A stretch of DNA of 64,000 bases, taken from contig NZ_JABBNU010000006.1 in the NCBI RefSeq assembly GCF_012926615.1, positions 248,001 to 312,000 of the forward strand, written 5' to 3'. Below the pieces are notes generated by a model. The model did no database searches and was not told the origin of the DNA. It saw nothing but the letters and a program-made list of their open reading frames with translations. The position numbers and the translations under genes are program-made. The stretch is from Marinigracilibium pacificum. GTDB lineage: Bacteria; Bacteroidota; Bacteroidia; Cytophagales; Cyclobacteriaceae. Positions 23,868-42,658 of the stretch are shown one piece after another. Each line of letters begins with the position of its first letter. Position 1 is the first letter of the stretch.

Positions 23868-26021
23868 ATGTTAAAATCACTATTACGTATTAATTTTTTA
23901 CTGTTAATTTCTTTTTTCTCCTCGGTTGCCCAGGATGCAGATAATGGAGAAAAAGATCTTTTTGATATGTCTTTGGAGGAGTTGATGGAGGTAGAAATTT
24001 TTTCTGCTTCAAAAAAATCTGAAAGTAGTTTTGATGCTCCTCTTTCATCAACCGTAATCACTAGTGAGGAGATTCAATCATATGGCGCAACTACAATTGA
24101 AGAAGCTCTTCGCTTGGTGCCAGGTTTGGTTGTTAGAGAAGAATCTAATGGGAATTTTGATGTTCATGTTAGAGGAAATGAATCTTTACCTCCCGGAAAT
24201 TTTACCTTCTATACTGAGAACAGTCTTACTCTTGTAATGATTGATGGTCGCAGGGTTTATAATTACATCAATGGAGGAACTTTTTGGGAAGCACTTCCTA
24301 TTGGTTTAGCAGATGTTGATAGAATTGAGGTAGTAAGAGGACCTTCATCACCTCTTTATGGTCCGAACGCAGTTAGTGGAGTGATAAATATTATCACAAA
24401 ACAAGCAATGGCTAATGATAAATCTTCGGTAGCAGCTAATGTTCAAGGAGGTAGCAAAGGAACTTTTGTTGGTAGTTTTAATGCTTTGAAAAGGCTAAAA
24501 AATGATAAATTTTCAATTGGATTAAGTGGAAACTTTGAGACAAGAGACAGGGACCATGATGAATACTATAATTGGATTACCGGAGATTACACTTCCAAAT
24601 ATGAGTTGATTAATTATTCAATTGGAAATCAGTTTGATGATTCATATGGATGGTTTTCTGAGGTTGAAATGGCTAAAGAAAGATTAGGGGTTAATGCTTT
24701 TATTAATTATGATATCAGTGAAGAAGTAAGTTTGGATTTAAAAACCGGTTATCAGAATTCGTTATCTCAATCTGCATTTTTTGAGAATTTCTATACCGTT
24801 CTTGGTGATAGAACATCAGAATCATATTATATCGATTTAACAACAAAAATAAAGGGAGTTAATTTACAAGCCTCAACAGAAAGAGGAATTCAAGATATTG
24901 CCAGAGGATCAGCATTTATATCTAAATTTGATTATAATAAAACTGATTTAAATGTCGACTACTCCTTTGAATTTGAGAATTTTTCTCTTCAACCAGCATT
25001 CAGTTATCAACAAGCTACATACTCTGATCTCGATTATGTAGAAAGTTCGAATACTGTAGGTTTAATGAATGCTGAACAGAAGTTAAGTAATCTTGGAGTA
25101 TCATTGAAAGCTGATTACAGGCTGTTTGATAATAAACTACGTTTGGTTGCTGCCGGACGGTTGGATAAATATAATGTTCCGGATGATGTTTATTTCACAT
25201 ATCAATTTATTTCAACATATAAGTTTAATGATAAACACCTGATCAGAGCTGTTGCTTCTCGGTCTAACCGAAGTTCCTTCTTCATTGATTCATACGCTAA
25301 TTATTATGTTGATGGAGATATCGATGTGGCATACAATGGTAATAAAGAGTTATCACTCCCTACTATAAATATGGTAGAATTTGGATATAGAGGAAAGCTT
25401 TCTGATATAATATTAGTTGATATTGAATTATTCAGAACAGTGTTTGAAAATGCTATAGACTTCCAGCCTACTGAATTTTATAACACTGCCAACGGACCAG
25501 TTTTGGAGTTTAATTACTTTAACGGGGATTTGGTGTCAACTCAAAATGGTATCACTTCAACAATTAGTATTGCTGCTTCAAAGAAACTTCAGATGAGGGT
25601 ATTTGGAACAATCCAAAAAACTGAATTGATGGATTACGACAAAAAAGTATCCTCAATAAACCCGATGACCCTGGCGTTGCCGACTTATACCAGAGTAGAT
25701 CAGGAAAATGAAAGGACACCTGGTTTTTATGGAGGAATGACATTCAATTATAAACCTATTGATAAGTTGTCTGTTTATTCAAGCATTTACTATATGGGAA
25801 AACAGGTTTACCGTCATGAAAGAGCTTCAACAAATGAGACTCTTGGAACTGCAGATGTTGATCCTGTTACTACTATGACTTTAAAAGTTTCTTATGAATT
25901 CACCAAAGGGATTAAAGCCTTTGTAAACGCAAGAAACTTGCTTGCAGGAGAGAAGGATCAGTTTGGTTTTACAGATAGGATCGGTGCACTTTATTTAGCC
26001 GGAATAAATGTTAATTTATAA
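23868..26021 (+). CDS. TonB-dependent outer-membrane receptor
   Basis: 717 residues from the ATG at 23868, where a signal peptide begins (MLKSLLRINFLLLISFF, cut near SVAQ); the in-frame start 69 nt upstream would bury it. The N-terminus carries FDMSLEELMEVEIFSASKK, a TonB-box-like segment common in vitamin/siderophore-type receptors. The plug domain follows (SYGATTIEEALRLVPGLVV, LVMIDGRRVYN, DVDRIEVVRGPSSPLYGPNAVSGVINI), then a β-barrel ending GALYLAGINVNL. It has no CarboxypepD_reg domain, unlike the receptor at 9785. Substrate unknown. It is monocistronic with a strong terminator behind it. Confidence 0.9.
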   Translation: MLKSLLRINFLLLISFFSSVAQDADNGEKDLFDMSLEELMEVEIFSASKKSESSFDAPLSSTVITSEEIQSYGATTIEEALRLVPGLVVREESNGNFDVHVRGNESLPPGNFTFYTENSLTLVMIDGRRVYNYINGGTFWEALPIGLADVDRIEVVRGPSSPLYGPNAVSGVINIITKQAMANDKSSVAANVQGGSKGTFVGSFNALKRLKNDKFSIGLSGNFETRDRDHDEYYNWITGDYTSKYELINYSIGNQFDDSYGWFSEVEMAKERLGVNAFINYDISEEVSLDLKTGYQNSLSQSAFFENFYTVLGDRTSESYYIDLTTKIKGVNLQASTERGIQDIARGSAFISKFDYNKTDLNVDYSFEFENFSLQPAFSYQQATYSDLDYVESSNTVGLMNAEQKLSNLGVSLKADYRLFDNKLRLVAAGRLDKYNVPDDVYFTYQFISTYKFNDKHLIRAVASRSNRSSFFIDSYANYYVDGDIDVAYNGNKELSLPTINMVEFGYRGKLSDIILVDIELFRTVFENAIDFQPTEFYNTANGPVLEFNYFNGDLVSTQNGITSTISIAASKKLQMRVFGTIQKTELMDYDKKVSSINPMTLALPTYTRVDQENERTPGFYGGMTFNYKPIDKLSVYSSIYYMGKQVYRHERASTNETLGTADVDPVTTMTLKVSYEFTKGIKAFVNARNLLAGEKDQFGFTDRIGALYLAGINVNL

Positions 26022-26040: not shown

Positions 26041-26072
26041 AAAAGGAGCTGATTTTCAGCTCCTTTTTTTAT
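26041..26072. terminator. Bidirectional terminator between receptor and tolC
   Basis: 12-bp stem AAAAGGAGCTGA / TCAGCTCCTTTT (26041-26052 with 26056-26067), 3-nt loop, followed by T on the plus strand and preceded by an A-run that gives a T-run on the minus strand. It separates the convergent receptor and export operons. Confidence 0.9.
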
Positions 26073-27475
26073 TGATTAGTAAGTTGTTCTTTCCATTCGA
26101 TTAACATACCAGAAGTATTTAGCCATTTTAAATATGATTCCTGTGTTTTTCGGGTCATATTGATTAGCTTAATTTGAGCTTCCATGTATTTGTTTTCCCT
26201 TGAAAATACAAGGAATAATGTTGATTCACCTGCTTCGAATAATCTTCTTTCAGCCTCCATCATTAGCCTGAAATATTCTGCATTTTTTCTAACAGTTTCA
26301 AGCTGTTTTATGAGGTTTTCCCATTGTGTAAAAGCCAATCGTTGCTTAGTTAGCCATTCATTTTGTTTATATCTCCATTGAAGACTTGTCATTTCAAGTC
26401 TTGCTTTTTGAATATTCAGGCTTCCTCTTTCTTTGCGCAGTAAAATAGGGAAATTCACATTGATACCTGCATAAAAGTTTTCATCAATTGCATTAGTCTT
26501 ATTAAGGCTTTCATTTTCAAAATCAGAAAACAAATAATATCCTTCAAGCTTGATTTCAGGTAATAGTCTTTGTCTCATCAGGCTTGTTGTATTTTCCAGA
26601 ATGGCAATTTCTGATTGGTAATATCTGGAAATGGGGTGATCGTAAGCTAACGAATCAACCATACCATTAACAATGGGTTCTATAAGTTTTTCTTCAGGTT
26701 TTTTATTAGCAGCAATGTTTTGCGCAACCTCAAGAGAGTCTTGCCATAGATAAAGGTCCAGTCGTTGACTCAACAGTTCAAACATTAATTTTGCCTCAAG
26801 CAGATCTGTTTGTCGCTGGGTTAACTGGGTAAGAGCTTCCAGAGTATCGACAGCAGCATAATCTCCTAATTCAGCAGACCTTTTTACCCCACTAAATCGT
26901 TGCGTACCTATTGATATCAATTCCTGTTGTAACTGAAGGTATTCGTAAGCTGCCTGCCACTCAAAATAGGCTGATGCTGCAGAAAATATTAATTCATTAA
27001 TATTAATGTTAGCTTCAGCATTAGCCTTATCAACCTTTAATGAAGCATTCTTCAGATCAGTTCTTTCCTCATCTCTAAATAATCCTCTTCCAAGATCAAA
27101 ACTTAAGCCAGCTTTCCAGAGTCCTTCATCCGGGACTGTAAGTTCAGGATTGAGGTAATATCCTTCGTTTTGTTCAAACCCGGCTTTGAAATCTAGTCCT
27201 GCTGCAGCTGTAGGAATACTGATACCTCCCTCTCGATGGGTATAATAATCTGAACCATTAAACTTCTTGGTATCAAATTTACCGTAAAGTTTAGGGTCGA
27301 ATGAACCACGCTTAGCCTGAAGTTCTGCCTCAGCTTCTTTAACTGATAACCAGATTCTTCCGGCTTCAGGATGGTTGTCGATTAGTTTTATTACATCAAC
27401 TAAAGCTAATGAATCCTGGCCGTTGATCTGAAATGCACAGACCAGCAGCAGTAATAATTTTACCAGTCTTTGCAT
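26069..27475 (-). CDS. TolC-family outer-membrane efflux protein
   Basis: 468 residues with a signal peptide (MQRLVKLLLLLVCAFQINGQ) and the long helical repeats of the outer-membrane efflux protein family (IDNHPEAGRIWLSVKEAEAEL, TDLKNASLKVDKANAEANI, QRQTDLLEAKLMFELLSQRL, LRKERGSLNIQKARLEM). It forms the outer-membrane channel of a tripartite export machine. Its start follows the HlyD-like gene stop by 1 nt, so the three export genes are one operon. It is the last gene before the terminator. Confidence 0.88.
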   Translation of the reverse strand: MQRLVKLLLLLVCAFQINGQDSLALVDVIKLIDNHPEAGRIWLSVKEAEAELQAKRGSFDPKLYGKFDTKKFNGSDYYTHREGGISIPTAAAGLDFKAGFEQNEGYYLNPELTVPDEGLWKAGLSFDLGRGLFRDEERTDLKNASLKVDKANAEANININELIFSAASAYFEWQAAYEYLQLQQELISIGTQRFSGVKRSAELGDYAAVDTLEALTQLTQRQTDLLEAKLMFELLSQRLDLYLWQDSLEVAQNIAANKKPEEKLIEPIVNGMVDSLAYDHPISRYYQSEIAILENTTSLMRQRLLPEIKLEGYYLFSDFENESLNKTNAIDENFYAGINVNFPILLRKERGSLNIQKARLEMTSLQWRYKQNEWLTKQRLAFTQWENLIKQLETVRKNAEYFRLMMEAERRLFEAGESTLFLVFSRENKYMEAQIKLINMTRKTQESYLKWLNTSGMLIEWKEQLTNQ

Positions 27476-27476
27476 G

Positions 27477-28835
27477 TTATTTTTTATCTTCTAATAAGGT
27501 TTCTCTTTTTTCTTTGTAGAAATCAGGAGGGAATCCATTGATTCTTCGCCATACTTCATACCATAAAGGTACGTCATTTAGCAAGATAATTCCTCGGGCA
27601 CCTGAGCCGGGTCTTAAAGCTTTTGGCCAACCATAATCAGCATATTTTTCACCACTTGGGGCTACAAGTATACGATAGGTACCATCTGATTGACTGAAAT
27701 TATCAATAGCGACAATTTCTCCACTGAATGTTCCGTGGGAAGCTCCGGGCCATCCACTAAAAACAATAGCAGGCCATCCATCAAACAAACACCTTATTTC
27801 CTGTCCTACTTCAAGTAAAGGCAGGTTAACAGGGTTTACATAATATTCGGCAGCAATTTGATAATTTTGAGGCATGATTGTGATCAGACGTTCACCAGCC
27901 TTGATATTTTCACCAATACCATTTTTGCTTGCCTGTGTGATATACCCATCTTGTGGTGCAAGAATATAATAGAACGACGATCTGAGTTCATAATTACTCA
28001 GCGTGTTTTCCATTTTTGCCAAATCGCCCTCTGCGGTAAATAGGTTACTTGATGCCTCAGCATAATCAGACCTGTTTTTCGCAATTTTATCATTGTAATC
28101 AGCATCGATACTTTGAAGTGCGATTCTGGCATTAATGTATTCGTTTTTTGCTTTAAGAAATTTATTATAAGCAGAAGTTCTTTTTGCCTGACCTTCCTGA
28201 AGCTTCATTTGACCTGTCTCAAATTCGGTTTTTGACTTTAAACCGTCTTTATATAAAGCCTCAATACGGTCAAAACGTGCTTTTGCAACATCAAGGTTTG
28301 TTTCGGAAGCTTTCCACTCCATACTGTCAATTTGTACAGTCAATCTGGCTTGCTCAAGTTTATTCGTGGCTTCCTGAAGCTTGAATTCTCTGGCATTAAC
28401 AAGTGCCTGATACTGATTGTTCAGTGCTTGCATCTTACTTTTGTAAGAATTAATACCTCCCTTTTTTGCCATTACCTGTGATCCTGTTCTTTCGATTAGA
28501 TTCGGGTCCAGGTACTCAGGTTTTACTTCACCAATTTTAAGGATAGTATCTCCCTTAGAAACAAGCTCTCCTTCACGTACATACCATTTTTCTATTCGTC
28601 CATCAATAAAACTTTGGATAGACTGAGGTCTTTCAGATGGAAGTAGTGCTGTAACTTCGCCTTTTGTCTGAATATTTTGTGTCCATGGAACAAAGAATAT
28701 CAATGGGATAATTAGTAACCAGAAATACTTATAATTTCCGGAGCGCTCGGGCTCAAATTCATCAATTTTTTTAAATGAATTATATCCCGTAGTATCTATT
28801 TCGTCTTTAACTCTTTTTTCGCTGAGATTAAGCAT
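27477..28835 (-). CDS. HlyD-family periplasmic adaptor
   Basis: 452 residues. A cytoplasmic N-terminus of ~37 residues leads into one membrane helix (YFWLLIIPLIFFVPW). A biotinyl/lipoyl-like half follows (FIDGRIEKWYVREGELVSKGDTILKI), then a long coiled coil (about 110-280) and the second lipoyl half (ILAPQDGYITQASKNGIGENI). A β-barrel domain (GQEIRCLFDGWPAIVFSGWPG) and a C-terminal region complete it. This is the membrane-fusion protein of a type I-like secretion or efflux system, linking the ABC protein (start 4 nt upstream) to TolC (1 nt downstream). Confidence 0.9.
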   Translation of the reverse strand: MLNLSEKRVKDEIDTTGYNSFKKIDEFEPERSGNYKYFWLLIIPLIFFVPWTQNIQTKGEVTALLPSERPQSIQSFIDGRIEKWYVREGELVSKGDTILKIGEVKPEYLDPNLIERTGSQVMAKKGGINSYKSKMQALNNQYQALVNAREFKLQEATNKLEQARLTVQIDSMEWKASETNLDVAKARFDRIEALYKDGLKSKTEFETGQMKLQEGQAKRTSAYNKFLKAKNEYINARIALQSIDADYNDKIAKNRSDYAEASSNLFTAEGDLAKMENTLSNYELRSSFYYILAPQDGYITQASKNGIGENIKAGERLITIMPQNYQIAAEYYVNPVNLPLLEVGQEIRCLFDGWPAIVFSGWPGASHGTFSGEIVAIDNFSQSDGTYRILVAPSGEKYADYGWPKALRPGSGARGIILLNDVPLWYEVWRRINGFPPDFYKEKRETLLEDKK

Positions 28836-28839
28836 TCAT

Positions 28840-30426
28840 TTAAATATTTAAGACTTCTGCTGGTGAAAAATCTTTTGGCCAGTAATAAACTTTATCGAAA
28901 TCGTAGTTCTTAAAAATTTGAGGATTGCGCTTTGTAATAATTGCAATCGGAATATTTTTTAGTATTATTTCTTCTAAAAATTGCTCAGTGACATGCTCTT
29001 CATGAAAAGTGTCTTCATTCCAGCATATAATTTCAGGGTCCATACTTAAACACCTGGCAGCAATAATTGCATACCTACTACCAAAATCAATATTTGTACC
29101 CTTTGGTAAAATATGTTTTTGGACATCTATGTCCCCAATTCCATTAAAATTGTACCCACACTTCTTTAATAAACTGATGATTTCGGAATCTTCAAGCTCG
29201 CCATAAGTTCCAACATTTTGGGCTAGAGTTCCTTCAAATATATTTTCAATTCCATTAAGAAGACCTATTCTGAACGGTGCTTTTGCGTTTTGTTCTATTG
29301 TAAATGAAACATTATGTATATCATTTTCAGTCGGAAGTTGAATTCTTACTTTTTGACCACGCAATATATTTAATGAACCTTTTCTTTTGTTTTCGGTATC
29401 AAAAATGTTTAGTGTATATGTGCCTTTAGATGTATTTACTCTACTTTTATCATCTACCAAAGGAATGTCAGCAAGTTTACCTAGTTTTTCAGATGCTGTA
29501 AGCGTGTCGTATAAAGTTTCCATGCTGAGAATAAGTTTTTCGACTGCATTCATTAGCATGATAATGATGATTTCTCCTGCAACAAATTGGCCGATGTTCA
29601 TATTATCATTTATAACTAGAAGTCCACCAGGTATTAATAGCAATGCAGCAATTAATACTTTTAATGTTAGTAGGCTGTAAAACTGCTTGATTAATACTTT
29701 AAAGTGTTTATTTCGGCTTTCAAGGTAACTTGAAACATATGAATCGGTTCTATTAAAGGCATGTTTACCACTATTTTTGTCATAGAATACTTCTTTTGTT
29801 CTGGCAACTTCTTGCAACCAAAAGGCAGTTTTGTATTTGTAGTCAGATTCCTCCAGACTACTTCTAAGACCTTTTTCACCAGTAAAACGCCAAACCAGCA
29901 ATAAACCACCAAATAGTATTAATGATATAGCAAGGAAAACAGGGTGGTAAATTCCAAGCAATATTAAACCGAATAGTATCTGAAGTGCCGCTGTGGTAAA
30001 ATCAAATAGTAATTTTGAAAATCCTTTTTGAATATTAATGGTGTCAAAAAATCTATTTACCAATTCTGGCGGATAACTACTTTTTATATATTCTGGCATC
30101 CATCTTGGAATTCGGTAAGTCAATTCAAAAGCAGATCTGGTAAAGATTTTCTGTTGAATGCTTTCAGTAATATACATTTGCTTAACCTGTAACCAGCCAT
30201 GAACAACTAATCCAACTAACACTAATATAACCAGTAAAATCCAGGAAGTAGTCACCTGCCTTGCCATGATAAGGTTGATGATAGCTTGAATACCCAAGGG
30301 TAAACTAAGGTATACAATCCCCTGGAAAAAGGCATAAAGATAAATTCTCAGGATATTTTCTCTGTCGTTGTTGATCAGCCTAAAAAATCGTTTGAAGGCA
30401 ATATTTGTCTTTTTACTTTTTGTCAT
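28840..30426 (-). CDS. ABC half-transporter with degenerate, Walker A-less nucleotide-binding domain
   Basis: 528 residues. The N-terminal ~320 residues are an ABC exporter membrane domain (about six helices, e.g. IYLYAFFQGIVYLSLPLGIQ, TSWILLVILVLVGLVVHGW). The C-terminal domain aligns with an exporter ATPase but lacks the expected motifs. After GSLNILRGQKVRI, where the Walker A loop belongs, there is LPTENDIHNV with no GKS/T. The Q-loop region survives as NIFEGTLAQNV. The LSGGQ signature is replaced by FGSRYAIIAAR (near 450). Walker B reads EIICWNED, with Asp changed to Asn, and the H-loop His is Lys in IITKRNPQ. The frame is uninterrupted, so this is a stable pseudo-ATPase, not a frameshift. 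There is no C39 peptidase domain. It is first gene of the ABC-HlyD-TolC operon. An ATP-competent partner encoded elsewhere is inferred. Confidence 0.85.
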   Translation of the reverse strand: MTKSKKTNIAFKRFFRLINNDRENILRIYLYAFFQGIVYLSLPLGIQAIINLIMARQVTTSWILLVILVLVGLVVHGWLQVKQMYITESIQQKIFTRSAFELTYRIPRWMPEYIKSSYPPELVNRFFDTINIQKGFSKLLFDFTTAALQILFGLILLGIYHPVFLAISLILFGGLLLVWRFTGEKGLRSSLEESDYKYKTAFWLQEVARTKEVFYDKNSGKHAFNRTDSYVSSYLESRNKHFKVLIKQFYSLLTLKVLIAALLLIPGGLLVINDNMNIGQFVAGEIIIIMLMNAVEKLILSMETLYDTLTASEKLGKLADIPLVDDKSRVNTSKGTYTLNIFDTENKRKGSLNILRGQKVRIQLPTENDIHNVSFTIEQNAKAPFRIGLLNGIENIFEGTLAQNVGTYGELEDSEIISLLKKCGYNFNGIGDIDVQKHILPKGTNIDFGSRYAIIAARCLSMDPEIICWNEDTFHEEHVTEQFLEEIILKNIPIAIITKRNPQIFKNYDFDKVYYWPKDFSPAEVLNI

Positions 30427-37630: not shown

Positions 37631-40093
37631 TTATATAGGTTCAACTAAATATTCTGTTTTATTTATTTTTACTGCCTTATTTTCCTTGTAACTACTCCAT
37701 GTTAGATTACCGGTATATCGGTGGCTCAGGATACCATTTTGGTCCAGAATCTGAAGAGTCATCCATTCATTGTCGAATAGTTCTCTGATATTATCATGCT
37801 TCTTCAATATTTCGGTAATAGCCTCTTTTGGAGCTTCAATGATTACGTTTAGTCGTTGAGGTAAGTGCTGGTAATTATTCCCATCATGTATTGACTGAAG
37901 TGGAAGTCCAATCCTTAAGTCTCCTTTGGCTCCTTCCAGAACTCCCAATCCTCCTGTCACATTGTGCAAAGTTTTGTTTCCAGCACCCATACGCTTATTG
38001 TCAACCGTACTGGCGTAGTATTGAAGGTTTATCCAGTTCGTAACTACCATTGGAGCAGTCATAATTGTTTCAAGAACTTTAAACTGATGATCTGTCTGCC
38101 AATCGTAAGAGTGAAGAAATGCCCGACCATTCAGGTCCATGCCTTTAGTTCTCATTCGTGGCGCAATGATAAATGAGCTGCATCCTGCAAGTCCCCATTC
38201 TGGTCTTACCTGTGACCAATCGTTTGCCCTTTGCTTGATTTTTTCATCAACCTGCTTTTTATTAATGCCAAGTCTTGTCGATCGGTTTAATCGTGCATTC
38301 TTGCTAGCTTGTGATAATGATGATTTAATTGATTTTAATTCATTTTGATGTGACTCAGGTATAACTGAATCATCAATTATTGTGATTTCGTCAGTTGTAG
38401 TGTTATGTAAACAAGCAAGGAAATATGTGTCATCAGGAATGTTGATGTCATATTCTTTTAATGCAGAACGGATTGCCGGATCGTTAAGAATGAGTTGAGC
38501 CGTTAGGGCATTGATCTCTCCGGAATTTCCTCCGCATGCACCACAATCAAGTCCTGAAGCATGAGGATTGTTCACACTTGTAGAACCGTGACCTGTGATT
38601 AAAACAAAAGGAGCAAAGTGCCTTGTTATTCCCATTGCCGTTAGCGCTGATTTGGCCATTGTAACTCGGTCATTAAATGGTATTCCGCTGATGTCAAGCT
38701 TTCCTTGACCCGATAGAATGCTTCCGAATTCTTTCTGCTTTGGACTTTCGATAGGTTTAGTCCATCCAAACGAATCGCTAATCAACTTAGGTAAGTAATA
38801 AATTCCTAAAGGACTCACAAAGCTGAACGAAGAAACGGGTCCCGACTTGAATTTTGTCCATGCTTCTTCAAATTTGCCTGATATTTGTCTTGACTTTTTC
38901 TCTTTGGCCAGGTCATCTGAATTTACAGTTGTTTCACGAACAGTTGGTCCTGATGGAATTAGTACGGGGCATTGGTTTCTCCCATTTCTATGATTTATTG
39001 GTGAATATTTAATTGGGAAACCAAAAAATCCGGCAAATCCTACTGTCTCGATCTGGTCATTTACAGCTTCCAGATTTCTGCGGTAAACTTCCGACCTTAC
39101 ATCAATGCAAAATACCATCTGAGCTTTTGGACGCTGGAAAGTATGATTTTCTTTTGTCTCTGAATGAAGCTTGAATTTAGAAACTAATTGTTCCTCTAAT
39201 GCAAAATCGTAGGCATCTTGTAAGATTGATTTAGCGTTGAATATTTTACTGTTATCATTCTCATAATCAGATAGATTTAGGTTGTTCAAGTGCTTTTTCC
39301 AGCTAGACTCGATTTTATCAAACGATTTTAAGATTGCAGCTTCCCAGCTGACTAAAGTAGCTAAAAAGGCTTTCAGAAAATTGGTGTCACCACCATAAAG
39401 GTTGTTTTGCCAATCAACTCCTGAACAATATGATGACCAACCAATAAGTTTTAATAAAAGGGTATGGAGATAGGCCTCAGTATATTCTTCTGGTATCGCT
39501 ATCATGCGAAGTCCTTCCTGAATAGAAGTTTCGATATCTTCAGGTAAGCTCTTGACAGCATTCCTGAATCCTTTGAAACCCATAATTTCAGGAAGTAGGT
39601 CTACTTGTGCATTTTTCTTCCAGTTAGTAAACATTTCCTCTGAACCATTTTTAGATGATTCAGGATTTTTGAAATAGGTGGATATCCAGGAAGAAGTAAA
39701 CTCTATAAGAATTTTTGGCAAATCGATGTTATACTGATCCTTTGCCATATCAGATAATATCTTTAATGTAGGATTAGTTTTTTCCCTTTCTTCCAGTTTC
39801 TGAACTGAATTAATAAACTCTTTTACTGTTGTGTTTATGTTTTTCTTTTCTAACGCTTTTTTTAAGGCGTCTTCACTGATGTTGTTATTTTGATATTGTG
39901 CCAGATAAAATGTTATTGGCATATACATTTGAATATTTCCCCGGTCATTTAAGACTTTTGCAGCTTTATCAAATGAAAGGTCAGAAAGTCCTACATAAGG
40001 GTTGACTGCTACGCTGTTATCGAGTGGCCATGCCGGAGCGATACGCTTGCATGCCTTATTTATTAATCCTTCAAGTGTTTTTGAATACATCAT
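37631..40093 (-). CDS. dabA: DabA, inorganic carbon uptake protein (DUF2309)
   Basis: 820 residues, the DUF2309/DabA family. It carries the β-carbonic-anhydrase-like zinc site: FCIDVRSEVYRR with Cys and Asp near residues 329-331, LITGHGSTSVNNP with His near 500, and GLDCGACGGNSGE with Cys near 514. DabA is a cytoplasmic, membrane-associated subunit that converts CO2 to bicarbonate one way, driven by cation flux through DabB. The dabB gene is 17 nt upstream. An ATG one codon later is an alternative start. In a heterotroph the complex would supply bicarbonate for carboxylases. Confidence 0.93.
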   Translation of the reverse strand: MMYSKTLEGLINKACKRIAPAWPLDNSVAVNPYVGLSDLSFDKAAKVLNDRGNIQMYMPITFYLAQYQNNNISEDALKKALEKKNINTTVKEFINSVQKLEEREKTNPTLKILSDMAKDQYNIDLPKILIEFTSSWISTYFKNPESSKNGSEEMFTNWKKNAQVDLLPEIMGFKGFRNAVKSLPEDIETSIQEGLRMIAIPEEYTEAYLHTLLLKLIGWSSYCSGVDWQNNLYGGDTNFLKAFLATLVSWEAAILKSFDKIESSWKKHLNNLNLSDYENDNSKIFNAKSILQDAYDFALEEQLVSKFKLHSETKENHTFQRPKAQMVFCIDVRSEVYRRNLEAVNDQIETVGFAGFFGFPIKYSPINHRNGRNQCPVLIPSGPTVRETTVNSDDLAKEKKSRQISGKFEEAWTKFKSGPVSSFSFVSPLGIYYLPKLISDSFGWTKPIESPKQKEFGSILSGQGKLDISGIPFNDRVTMAKSALTAMGITRHFAPFVLITGHGSTSVNNPHASGLDCGACGGNSGEINALTAQLILNDPAIRSALKEYDINIPDDTYFLACLHNTTTDEITIIDDSVIPESHQNELKSIKSSLSQASKNARLNRSTRLGINKKQVDEKIKQRANDWSQVRPEWGLAGCSSFIIAPRMRTKGMDLNGRAFLHSYDWQTDHQFKVLETIMTAPMVVTNWINLQYYASTVDNKRMGAGNKTLHNVTGGLGVLEGAKGDLRIGLPLQSIHDGNNYQHLPQRLNVIIEAPKEAITEILKKHDNIRELFDNEWMTLQILDQNGILSHRYTGNLTWSSYKENKAVKINKTEYLVEPI

Positions 40094-40110
40094 ATTTTTT
40101 TGAAGTGTGA

Positions 40111-41676
40111 TTACCTATTTAATTGAGCGTTACCTGAATTAATTATTCGGTCAAAAAGTAGATGGAGGTAAAATCCATTTCTCCGGTATGTTTCCCATTT
40201 AATGGATGTGTCGTTGTTTTTGCCTTTGTTATATATCATGTAAAATATGGTGGTCACAAAAAACATCAACATGGCAATAGATATGATTTTAGTTGTGAAG
40301 TCTGGTGTTGATAAAACTGGTATTTGTGACTCAATCAGGTGACTGATTGCATTTTCAAAGATGAAAAATGATAGTAGAACGAAACCTGATATTATTATGC
40401 TACGCAGCGTGCTTCCCAGTCCATTTCTTACCGAAATAGTTTCCATTGTGAAATATGAAACTCCGGCAAGGATAATTATGCCCAGAATATTAAACTGGAA
40501 ATTCAGATGCGCGAACCCTCCCCAAAAATTGGCGATAGCTGTAAATATTAAACATGTGGTTATAAAGCCAGTCAGAGTATTCCAAAAGGTTGATGCAGGT
40601 TTTGCAGAATTTCTTAATTGATTTAGTCTGTACTTATCGATTGCACTTCCTGACGAAAGAAATGAATGTGCCTTATAAAATGAATGAGCTATGATATGAA
40701 GTAATGCTGCAGAGTAAAGACCTAACCCACAGATCATAAGGCTGAAGCCCATATGTCCTATGCTGGAATAGGCTAAACTGGTTTTGATTGCAGGCTGCGA
40801 TGGAAAAACAATCGTTCCATATAGCGCTGTGATCCCTCCGAAGACAAGTAAAACGACAGGAGCTGTGGTTAAATCCATTAAGAAGGCAAACCGAACAATC
40901 AAATATGGTCCTGCATTCAAAATTCCGGCATGAAGCAATGCTGAAACCGGTGTTGGAGCTTCCATTACATCCAAAATCCAACCGTGAAAAGGAATTTGAA
41001 CTGATTTGATGATTGCTGCCAGAACCAGAAAGAACGCTGAAAGTTCAAGGTATAGTGAAACGTGTTCCTTTGAGATTGCCTTAAGCGCATTGAAAATATC
41101 GCCTAAATTCGTGCTTCCAATCTCAAGATATAAAAATGATAATCCTCCCAGCAGGAATAGATCGCTAATTCGAGCAATTATGAATTTCTTTCTTACAACT
41201 ACCTTCGTTTCTTCTCTGTCATTGTAATAATTGATGAGTGATTGCAGACTAATGCTTGTGGCAACCCATGCAATGAAAAGGGTGATAATTGTTCCTGATA
41301 CTACCAGTATCTGAACCAATGCTACTGTTGTTAATAATCGTTTCAAAAATAGTGATTGACGATTGTCTCCATTCAAGTAATTCCTACTGAATTTGAACAC
41401 GATAAGTCCGATTATTGAGACCATGGAATAGATTGTTGTACTGACCGTGTCAAACCGCACTGCAATTATACTGGCATCTACCGCTGGAATTTTAGCTACC
41501 AGTTGACCTCCCATGACAAGGTAAATCAGTAATGACGCCGAGCTTAGAATTCCTATACCCAGAAGGGAACTTCCTGTGATAAATACAGGCTTTATACTGC
41601 TTTTACTTTTTATGAAAGTAGTCCCTAATAATGCTATCGGGATAAAAGCGGAAATGAATAAAAGTATATCAACCAT
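40111..41676 (-). CDS. dabB: DabB, NuoL-like cation-translocating subunit
   Basis: 521 residues with about 13 membrane helices. It is a relative of the complex I antiporter-like subunit NuoL: HGWILDVMEAPTPVSALLHAGILNAGPYL in the middle, then SLAYSSIGHMGFSLMICGLG. It is the first gene of the dabB-dabA-small protein operon, 82 bp from the divergent LysR gene. In the DAB complex it is thought to couple proton or sodium flux to CO2 hydration by DabA. It stands apart from any nuo genes, supporting DabB over NADH dehydrogenase. Confidence 0.92.
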   Translation of the reverse strand: MVDILLFISAFIPIALLGTTFIKSKSSIKPVFITGSSLLGIGILSSASLLIYLVMGGQLVAKIPAVDASIIAVRFDTVSTTIYSMVSIIGLIVFKFSRNYLNGDNRQSLFLKRLLTTVALVQILVVSGTIITLFIAWVATSISLQSLINYYNDREETKVVVRKKFIIARISDLFLLGGLSFLYLEIGSTNLGDIFNALKAISKEHVSLYLELSAFFLVLAAIIKSVQIPFHGWILDVMEAPTPVSALLHAGILNAGPYLIVRFAFLMDLTTAPVVLLVFGGITALYGTIVFPSQPAIKTSLAYSSIGHMGFSLMICGLGLYSAALLHIIAHSFYKAHSFLSSGSAIDKYRLNQLRNSAKPASTFWNTLTGFITTCLIFTAIANFWGGFAHLNFQFNILGIIILAGVSYFTMETISVRNGLGSTLRSIIISGFVLLSFFIFENAISHLIESQIPVLSTPDFTTKIISIAMLMFFVTTIFYMIYNKGKNNDTSIKWETYRRNGFYLHLLFDRIINSGNAQLNR

Positions 41677-41758: not shown

Positions 41759-42658
41759 ATGAACTACACATTGAATCAGCTTAGAGTTTTTCATAAAGTG
41801 GTGGAAACCAAGAGTATAACCAGGGCTGCTGAAGAGCTGTTTATGACACAGCCAGCGGTGTCAATTCAGTTAAAAAATTTTCAGGATCAGTTTGATATTC
41901 CACTAACCGAGCTTAAAGGCAGGCGTATTCAGGTCACTGATTTTGGTTATGAAATTGCTGCGATAACTGAAAAAGCTCTCGAACAATTACTCAATTTGCA
42001 ATACAAAACCAAGGAGTATAAAGGGGTTGTAACAGGTAAATTAAGAATAGCTTCAGCATCGACGGGTAAATATGTGATCCCATATTTTTTATCCAAGTTT
42101 TTGGAAGACCACCCTGGGATAGATCTGGTATTGGATGTAACAAATAAATCTCAAGTGATTTCTGAACTGAAGAATAAGGAGATAGAATTTGCAGTTGTTT
42201 CAGTTTTGCCCGAGGATATAGATGTTGATATAGAAGAAGAAGTATTGATTGAAAATAAACTGTATTTGGTTAGTAAATCAGAATCAATGGTCAAATCAAA
42301 ACCGTTGATTTTCAGAGAGCCCGGGTCAGCAACCCGGAGAGAAATGGAAAATTATTTCCAGCACAAGTCAAACAGAGAGCGTGGTAGAATTGAGTTGACA
42401 TCTAATGAAGCCGTAAAACAAGCTGTAATAGCTGGAATAGGTAGTTCTATTTTGCCTTTAATAGGAATAAAGAATGAACTTGTAGATGGAACACTTAAAA
42501 TTATTGAAAGGAAAGGATTGCCTATCGTTACGACATGGCGAATCATCTGGCTGAAAAAAAAGCAATTAACTCCAGTGGCCGAAGCCTATTTAAAATTTCT
42601 TAGAGAAGAAAAAAATAAAATTCTTGAAGAAAGTTTTTCCTGGTATTTGAAAAATTGA
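41759..42658 (+). CDS. LysR family regulator (CbbR-like), divergent from dab operon
   Basis: 299 residues. An N-terminal helix-turn-helix (TLNQLRVFHKVVETKSITRAAEELFMTQPAVSIQLKN) leads into a LysR substrate-binding domain with the CbbR-like segment GKLRIASASTGKYVIPYFLSKF. It is divergent from dabB across only 82 bp, the classic arrangement for a LysR protein controlling its neighbour, so it probably senses inorganic-carbon status and activates dabBA. I could not place a clear T-N11-A operator in the short intergenic gap. Confidence 0.9.
   Translation: MNYTLNQLRVFHKVVETKSITRAAEELFMTQPAVSIQLKNFQDQFDIPLTELKGRRIQVTDFGYEIAAITEKALEQLLNLQYKTKEYKGVVTGKLRIASASTGKYVIPYFLSKFLEDHPGIDLVLDVTNKSQVISELKNKEIEFAVVSVLPEDIDVDIEEEVLIENKLYLVSKSESMVKSKPLIFREPGSATRREMENYFQHKSNRERGRIELTSNEAVKQAVIAGIGSSILPLIGIKNELVDGTLKIIERKGLPIVTTWRIIWLKKKQLTPVAEAYLKFLREEKNKILEESFSWYLKN

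Follow-up and report, generated by a model that had tools for sequence, protein, structure and literature searches.

A maintained ABC half-transporter with a dead ATPase domain in an HlyD–TolC operon, and relatives without the domain

ABC transporters are defined by their ATPase, and ABC-fold secondary transporters are already known in the form of SbmA/BacA (SLiPT). SbmA is a proton-driven transporter with the fold of the ABC transmembrane domain (TMD), derived from ABC proteins, in which glutamates are essential, and some of these are already present in its ATPase-bearing kin YddA (PMC13316013); the main difference between BacA and BclA is the absence of the ATPase (PMC12003926). The family described here resembles these pairs in its ABC-exporter TMD fold, in the loss of the nucleotide-binding domain (NBD) from an ABC ancestor, in a presumed ATP-free mode of work and in acidic TMD residues that are partly present in ATPase-bearing kin (PMC13316013, PMC12003926). 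It differs in having an exporter-type operon with HlyD and TolC and in the commonness of intermediates with a dead NBD, whereas SbmA is an importer with extra TM0 helices, none of which appear in the model of our protein; no SbmA/BacA model is among its Pfam matches at E up to 1.

Removal of the NBD can also be engineered: two reports describe MsbA without its NBD (MsbA-MD) as a TMD that alone carries out proton-coupled efflux of ethidium (PMC4979069) and that fails to replace MsbA in cells (PMC8660845). That protein is a laboratory truncation, whereas the NBD loss among the relatives considered here is natural. The ABC proteins of type I secretion (HlyB, PrtD and PCAT1) share with our protein TMD homology, fold and HlyD/TolC partners, but its NBD is without catalytic motifs and in one clade of relatives the NBD is absent; its best NCBIfam match is the NHLM/PCAT export family TIGR03796 (residues 3–329, E = 7.7e-18, far below the cut-off of that model), and its scores for the type I secretion models TIGR01846/01842/03375 are likewise far below the cut-offs. 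Degenerate-site exporters such as TM287/288, TmrAB, TAP and Pdr5 keep one good composite site, to which the degenerate subunit of a heterodimer still supplies the signature. Pdr5 and TmrAB resemble our case in having Walker B, His and signature off consensus, but our protein could form no good composite site with any partner. Among open-licence literature we found no title on an HlyD–TolC exporter family with a dying or absent ATPase, although such a family may be described elsewhere.

The protein is encoded in the window (the whole stretch of 64,000 nucleotides of Marinigracilibium pacificum that was analysed) by the first gene of a three-gene operon:

28840..30426, minus strand: ABC half-transporter with a dead ATPase domain (528 aa, ATG start; stop codon included)
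27477..28835, minus strand: HlyD-type periplasmic adaptor (452 aa; 4-nt gap after the ABC gene)
26069..27475, minus strand: TolC-family outer membrane factor (468 aa; 1-nt gap after the HlyD gene)

An intact frame and a tight operon, both claimed by an earlier sequence-only reading, are confirmed: no internal stop interrupts the 528-aa frame. The adaptor and the outer membrane factor are the partners expected of a type I secretion system, and the upstream neighbour of the operon is a TauE-type transporter.

Two domains and several motif positions can be placed on the protein:

29452..30426, minus strand: transmembrane domain, residues 1–325, with long helices and a type IV ABC exporter fold (AF2 model, Foldseek, ABC_membrane)
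28843..29451, minus strand: degenerate NBD remnant, residues 326–528 (alignments, selection, AF2 model)
29320..29337, minus strand: LPTEND (364–369), site of Walker A in relatives (alignment of 30)
29065..29094, minus strand: NIDFGSRYAI (445–454), at the place of xLSGGQxxxx (alignment to relatives and exporters)
29011..29034, minus strand: EIICWNED (465–472), Walker B, with Asn470 for Asp and Glu471 at the catalytic position (alignment)
28930..28932, minus strand: Lys499, opposite the H-loop His (placed by eye in a gapped stretch)
29572..29574, minus strand: Glu285 in TM6, conserved in the family (alignment and AF2 model)

Pfam recognizes ABC_membrane (PF00664) over part of the TMD half at 28.5 bits, against a cut-off of 28; at E up to 1 there is no match to ABC_tran (PF00005), and a weak DUF6050 is the sole other match. 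Aligned to L117, an intact exporter of the same genome that served as the motif reference, the place of Walker A (GxxxxGKS/T) holds LPTEND and gaps; in the alignment of 30 an 18-column gap follows LPTEND and a 9-column gap lies upstream of it. The missing Walker A, FGSRY for LSGGQ, Asn in Walker B and Lys at the H-loop had all been called from the sequence alone, and all are confirmed by alignment, with Lys499 placed by eye because the aligner left a gap there. The stretch NIFEGTLAQNV, earlier described as Q-loop-like, is present but lies directly downstream of the Q-loop, whose Gln has been lost. To this description we add that the catalytic-Glu position is still Glu; Glu471 apart, the hallmarks of the ATP-binding domain of an ABC exporter (Walker A, LSGGQ, Walker B Asp and H-loop) are gone. 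Judged by its motifs, the protein is ATPase-dead and would not serve as the ATP-hydrolysing ABC subunit of a type I secretion system.

Structure models agree with this division. AF2 gave a pLDDT of 80 for the window protein and 91 for an orthologue, with modest confidence for the remnant NBD (block means 54–90). Both models match PCAT1, HlyB/D, PrtD and TM287/288 in Foldseek (E = 2.2e-20 for the window model to PCAT1), as expected of an ABC exporter TMD.

The gene belongs to a broad ABC–HlyD–TolC family, mostly of Bacteroidota, with a Sphingomonadales branch. Relatives at E ≤ 1e-5 occur in 162 of the 196 genomes of the window's taxonomic family; a phylum survey gave a match in 109 of 395 genomes (11 of those weak, above 1e-10), and an order survey in 245 of 292. 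Loci were read from 70 genera of the window's family, together with 80 named loci (Flavobacteriaceae, Cyclobacteriaceae, Saprospiraceae, Crocinitomicaceae and others). Motifs were compared in a set of 203 rows, which was chosen and not random: 80 loci of the window's family (L036–L115, 70 genera); 80 named loci, the best among 565 that were retrieved with a pair of TMD patterns, of which one contains Arg125 and Asp128; 40 loci of the phylum, order and class picked for diversity and short frames; and four other exporters from the genome of the window. No fewer than two loci appear in it twice (L123/L041 and L148/L065), L057 and L229 were removed before counting because contig ends cut them, and L219 was counted as canonical.

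A tripartite exporter built on an ATPase-dead subunit had been thought unusual; it is instead the rule of a large family. LSGGQ occurs in none of the 180 NBD-bearing members sampled. Among 171 crown NBDs (a chosen sample that includes the window protein), LSGGQ is absent throughout, the Q-loop Gln is present in 3, the H-loop His in 1, the Walker B Asp in 15 and the catalytic Glu in 20, and Asp and Glu never occur together. Walker A follows another course: 148 of these NBDs have a strict GxxxxGK[ST], 16 have Gly-Lys without Ser/Thr and 7 have neither. Because Gly-Lys is thus kept in 164 of 171, Walker A is the motif that goes last. The seven exceptions are three members of the window genus, in which Walker A was lost through deletion, L047, which has no motif, and L048, L069 and L181, which have Arg in place of Lys. 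Walker A, the Walker B Asp and the catalytic Glu are all retained in nine deeper members, seven of which also have the His; in all nine the Q-loop Gln is absent, and the signatures vary (LPGG, LPQG, LSES, ISFG, LSTGE and LSTGQ). Near-signatures are found in L214 (LSTGQ), L213 (LSTGE) and the Sphingomonadales members L242 and L247 (both LSVGE). All six Sphingomonadales members examined are without Walker A, Walker B Asp and His and retain Glu285 and the operon. Their loss of ATP-site motifs is apparently independent, although their place in the tree is unsure because long branches meet there. At the Walker B Asp position, L158, L149 and L050 have Lys, Glu or Asn followed by Asp (LKDP, LEDP and LNDF), apparently a swap typical of whole subclades.

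The partner genes persist alongside this decay: dedicated HlyD and TolC genes come next in 155 of the 156 degenerate loci with enough sequence, and the one miss, L169, was scored as such although the ABC–HlyD–TolC triple is present, a long HlyD frame overlapping the ABC gene. Of seven annotated records with a named gene, five read ‘ABC transporter ATP-binding protein’ and two ‘ABC transporter transmembrane domain-containing protein’; the more frequent of these names is at odds with the way in which the proteins probably work.

Several family matches have open frames of only 334–394 aa. In all 18 such NBD-less loci that were read (17 genomes), a TMD gene of about 335 aa is followed by HlyD and then TolC, and the interval from TMD gene to HlyD ranges from an 11-bp overlap to a 118-bp gap (median, an overlap of 8 bp). 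In the order survey, short frames of NBD-less size occur in at least 53 distinct genomes, 11 of which are among the 17 checked in DNA. An apparent NBD loss in G1010 was excluded, as the contig ends there.

A tree of the TMD alone, built from 94 of the 203 rows by a quick method and with long outgroup branches, groups all 18 NBD-less rows as a single clade (99*) that arises within the degenerate rows; the neighbours of this clade have an eroded Walker A (GKH, GKE and GKN). The nine rows with Walker B Asp and catalytic Glu fall outside the degenerate and NBD-less group, and canonical exporters form the outgroup. The tree therefore gives a stepwise series from near-canonical NBDs, through NBDs in which mainly Walker A is kept, to no NBD, and because the NBD-less clade is nested among degenerate rows, the NBD was lost after the catalytic motifs. 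Members of the clade come from three family codes, with a single genome from a fourth, which makes transfer or an ancient NBD loss possible.

The form of the protein without Walker A is fixed in the window genus. All three species examined have the same 528-aa form, the congeners are 82% identical to the window protein, and no indel separates the three NBDs (203 codons); with the uninterrupted frame, this exceeds what chance would give. Between the two congeners (G120 and G063), the NBD has a dN of 0.086 against a dS of about 1.9 (ratio 0.045), and the TMD a dN of 0.025 (ratio 0.009); the ratios are rough because synonymous sites are near or at saturation. The window protein is 89–90% identical to its congeners in the TMD and 68% in the NBD, and the congeners are 97 and 86% identical to one another. 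In two other exporters of the same genomes the corresponding NBD/TMD identities are 84.5/83.7, 83.4/83.0, 94.9/92.8 and 84.2/68.1, so the relation of NBD to TMD constraint in the window exporter is inverted relative to them. The relaxed constraint on the genus NBD is real, because its non-synonymous evolution is about three times faster than that of the TMD, but the dead NBD is under purifying selection: it is kept, loosely.

The earlier view that the gene is maintained and not decaying thus gains support from the intact frame, the common form in three of three species and the selection on the NBD. A Walker A in aligned orthologues, which had been named as a finding that would speak against it, does occur in other genera, but most other motifs of those NBDs fail; the deletion, fixed in all three species of the genus examined, is therefore a lineage-specific last step and not an artefact of sequencing or decay. 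The chance that the gene is a pseudogene or an assembly error is negligible: orthologues with Walker A in other genera are the one point in favour, and the conservation of the same form in congeners, together with purifying selection on an intact frame, speaks against it.

What the dead NBD may be kept for is suggested by the columns of the TMD that depend on it. Seventeen TMD columns are conserved in members with an NBD and lost in members without one, and five of them lie at 206–218, the second coupling-helix region (helix 211–215 in the model), so the dead NBD seems still to be seated on the TMD, although the window protein departs at two of the five (Tyr215 and Asn218). Residues unchanged in the NBD of the window genus include Phe397, Gly399, Asn404 and Arg458, at positions that follow the Q-loop and the signature. 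We infer that the dead NBD stays docked as a structural or dimerising part. In the long form of L048–L053 (about 720–735 aa; for example, L051:9044-11242), an extra N-terminal domain of about 150 aa sits where PCAT proteins have their C39 peptidase; it has no Pfam match, two NCBIfam alignments reach into it, and it is possibly a degenerate C39-like domain. Matches also occur in plasmid records (22): the two best, from Persicobacter, are less than 50% identical, and the one examined belongs to the long form, carries an NBD and has GKN in its Walker A. In L249, from a Sphingopyxis plasmid, the annotation shows an IS3 transposase directly downstream of the ABC match and leaves the match itself without an ABC gene.

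The TMD keeps a set of conserved charges. Arg125, Lys134, Lys138, Lys197, Arg238, His241, Glu285, Lys297 and Lys314 are near-invariant in the 189 crown and NBD-less rows. Arg125 is also present in five of five canonical exporter rows, and Glu285 in none of the five. In the AF2 model the TM6 helix begins at 278, so that Glu285 is about seven residues along it. The six Sphingomonadales members keep it, along with Lys134 and Lys197, and do not keep Lys138 or Lys297. Judged by sequence, the family, like SLiPT proteins, combines an ABC-TMD fold with no working ATPase, given its dead NBDs and NBD-less relatives; set against the glutamate ladder of SLiPT, one near-invariant TM6 Glu and other charges are seen. 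Glu285 is present in nine of nine members with Walker B Asp and catalytic Glu and is therefore not specific to ATP-free work, since these members may still hydrolyse ATP; it may serve ATP-using and ATP-free members alike. Given the precedents of SbmA, BacA/BclA and NBD-less MsbA, ion-coupled export is plausible. As for the cargo, TetR-type regulators lie just upstream in 117 of the 163 degenerate loci with enough sequence, in none of 18 NBD-less and none of nine deeper loci (lower bounds, counted by similarity to four TetR queries), and are not found just upstream in the two congeners; their presence beside many relatives suggests small toxic molecules or lipids as substrate.

The reading that we favour, by a little better than an even chance, is that the protein is part of a homodimeric ABC-fold tripartite exporter that is not powered by its own ATP hydrolysis and is probably driven by an ion gradient. 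The 528-aa protein would be the inner-membrane subunit, a homodimer with the type IV ABC exporter fold (PCAT/HlyB type) that moves its substrate by alternating access of the TMD and presumably hands it outwards to HlyD and TolC. ATP would not be hydrolysed, as the NBD is without the elements through which ATP is bound and split in the known mechanism; what remains of the NBD would serve as a structural domain seated on the coupling helices. An ion (proton) gradient, acting by way of the conserved TMD charges, would most probably supply the free energy, with Glu285 in TM6 as the best candidate for coupling. What is observed is that the ATP-site motifs are dead, that the frame is maintained and the operon conserved, and that relatives lose the ATPase step by step until no NBD is left; because the pump and its two partners are kept throughout this decay, the exporter probably works without ATP. 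Some observations run counter to an ATP-free reading: near-signatures are kept in some members, and LSVGQ occurs in an otherwise intact exporter of the window genome.

The sequence-only reading had offered two options, a second, catalytic ABC subunit or export powered another way, and the latter is the better of them. A heterodimer in which the window protein is one half and a catalytic half-transporter encoded elsewhere supplies the ATPase is quite unlikely. Transporters with one degenerate site are common (PMC7756269), and four more ABC_membrane genes occur in the window genome, all away from the operon, of which two have full consensus motifs, one has LSVGQ and is otherwise intact, and one has Asp for the catalytic Glu. 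But the window protein has lost the signature, which degenerate-site heterodimers keep usable (it has IDFGS, and near-signatures are found in L213 and L214), along with the Walker B Asp and the His; because of this, neither composite site of a heterodimer could be consensus, which speaks against complementation by the four. A survey of 200 loci found no second half-transporter close to the family gene, and NBD-less members could pair by TMD only. A catalytic partner is thus unlikely, and docking of a free-standing ABC ATPase in trans on the TMD coupling helices is less probable still. Coupling-region residues are conserved where an NBD is fused, but they relax in NBD-less members, and in the window protein the fused dead NBD would block the docking site. 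Another open reading frame with an ABC ATPase domain occurs in 10 of the 200 loci, never with a matching TMD and in nine of the ten more than 2 kb away. Alone among the 200 loci, L169 (L169:2-1498, a Flavobacteriales contig) encodes a stand-alone Opp/Yej-type double ATPase close by, 65 nt upstream of the family gene and on its strand, but that ATPase is of importer type. Neighbours that had seemed suspicious turned out to be UvrA and FtsK in L216 and RecG in L211. When the NBD of a closely related NBD-bearing protein was used to search 12 NBD-less genomes, no detached orthologous NBD was found in any of them, although a non-orthologous ATPase could escape it; the matches listed were ordinary ABC proteins (at most 30% identity, best E = 3e-27), and in two of two NBD-bearing relatives other than the query's own genome, used as positive controls, the orthologous NBD was found (E = 1e-73 and 3e-69, 46–48% identity).

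Two further readings keep the operon and change the role of the ABC protein. That the NBD is a nucleotide-binding switch, with ATP binding through Walker A gating the exporter without hydrolysis and the window genus a special further loss, is unlikely. Gly-Lys is nearly universal in crown NBDs and the NBD fold is intact in the orthologue model, and the retention of Walker A in most of the family suggests that nucleotide binding may still matter there; but Walker A is missing from the window genus, from L047 and from the six Sphingomonadales members, the NBD-less members have no NBD, and in all of these the operon persists. Such a switch may thus hold for the relatives that keep Walker A, not for the window protein. 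We also think it improbable that the protein is no pump at all, and instead a gate, scaffold or passive channel for HlyD–TolC or a regulator of other tripartite systems. Dead transporters can become regulators or channels, as SUR (a regulator) and CFTR (a channel) illustrate; but dedicated HlyD and TolC genes accompany both the degenerate and the NBD-less loci in the proportions given above, and the charged TMD residues are almost invariant.

If the favoured ion-driven exporter is right, HlyD–TolC export with an ABC-fold pump can run without ATP in a widespread family, which would provide a natural series of graded intermediates for studying how primary pumps turn into secondary ones. The fuller claim is that an ATP-driven ABC pump has here been turned by nature, for the second time, into a secondary transporter driven by ions, now in an HlyD–TolC exporter. 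The family would span at least two phyla, its ATPase would have been disabled first and discarded later, Walker A would have been lost more than once, and every stage (near-intact NBD, Walker A only, no Walker A as in the window genus, and no NBD) would still be alive. Taken jointly, we hold this to fall slightly short of an even chance.

The surroundings of the operon contain other genes of interest. At 37631–41676 of the window, about 7 kb from the operon, a DabA gene (PF10070, E = 2.4e-250) adjoins a gene for a Proton_antipo_M protein, probably DabB; the two form a candidate inorganic-carbon pump operon, beside which a divergent LysR regulator is found at 41759–42658. In Sphingobium sp. KCTC 72723 a DabA gene (PF10070; L244:1362-3914) lies 43 bp upstream of the ABC–HlyD–TolC operon, and in the congener G120 no gene of the length of DabA is present within 9 kb upstream of it; the closeness of DabA to the operon in the window and in L244 is probably due to chance. 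A second TonB-dependent receptor paralogue is found beside the operon in a congener (L036:16442-18550) and is 43% identical to the product of the gene at 23868–26021 of the window.
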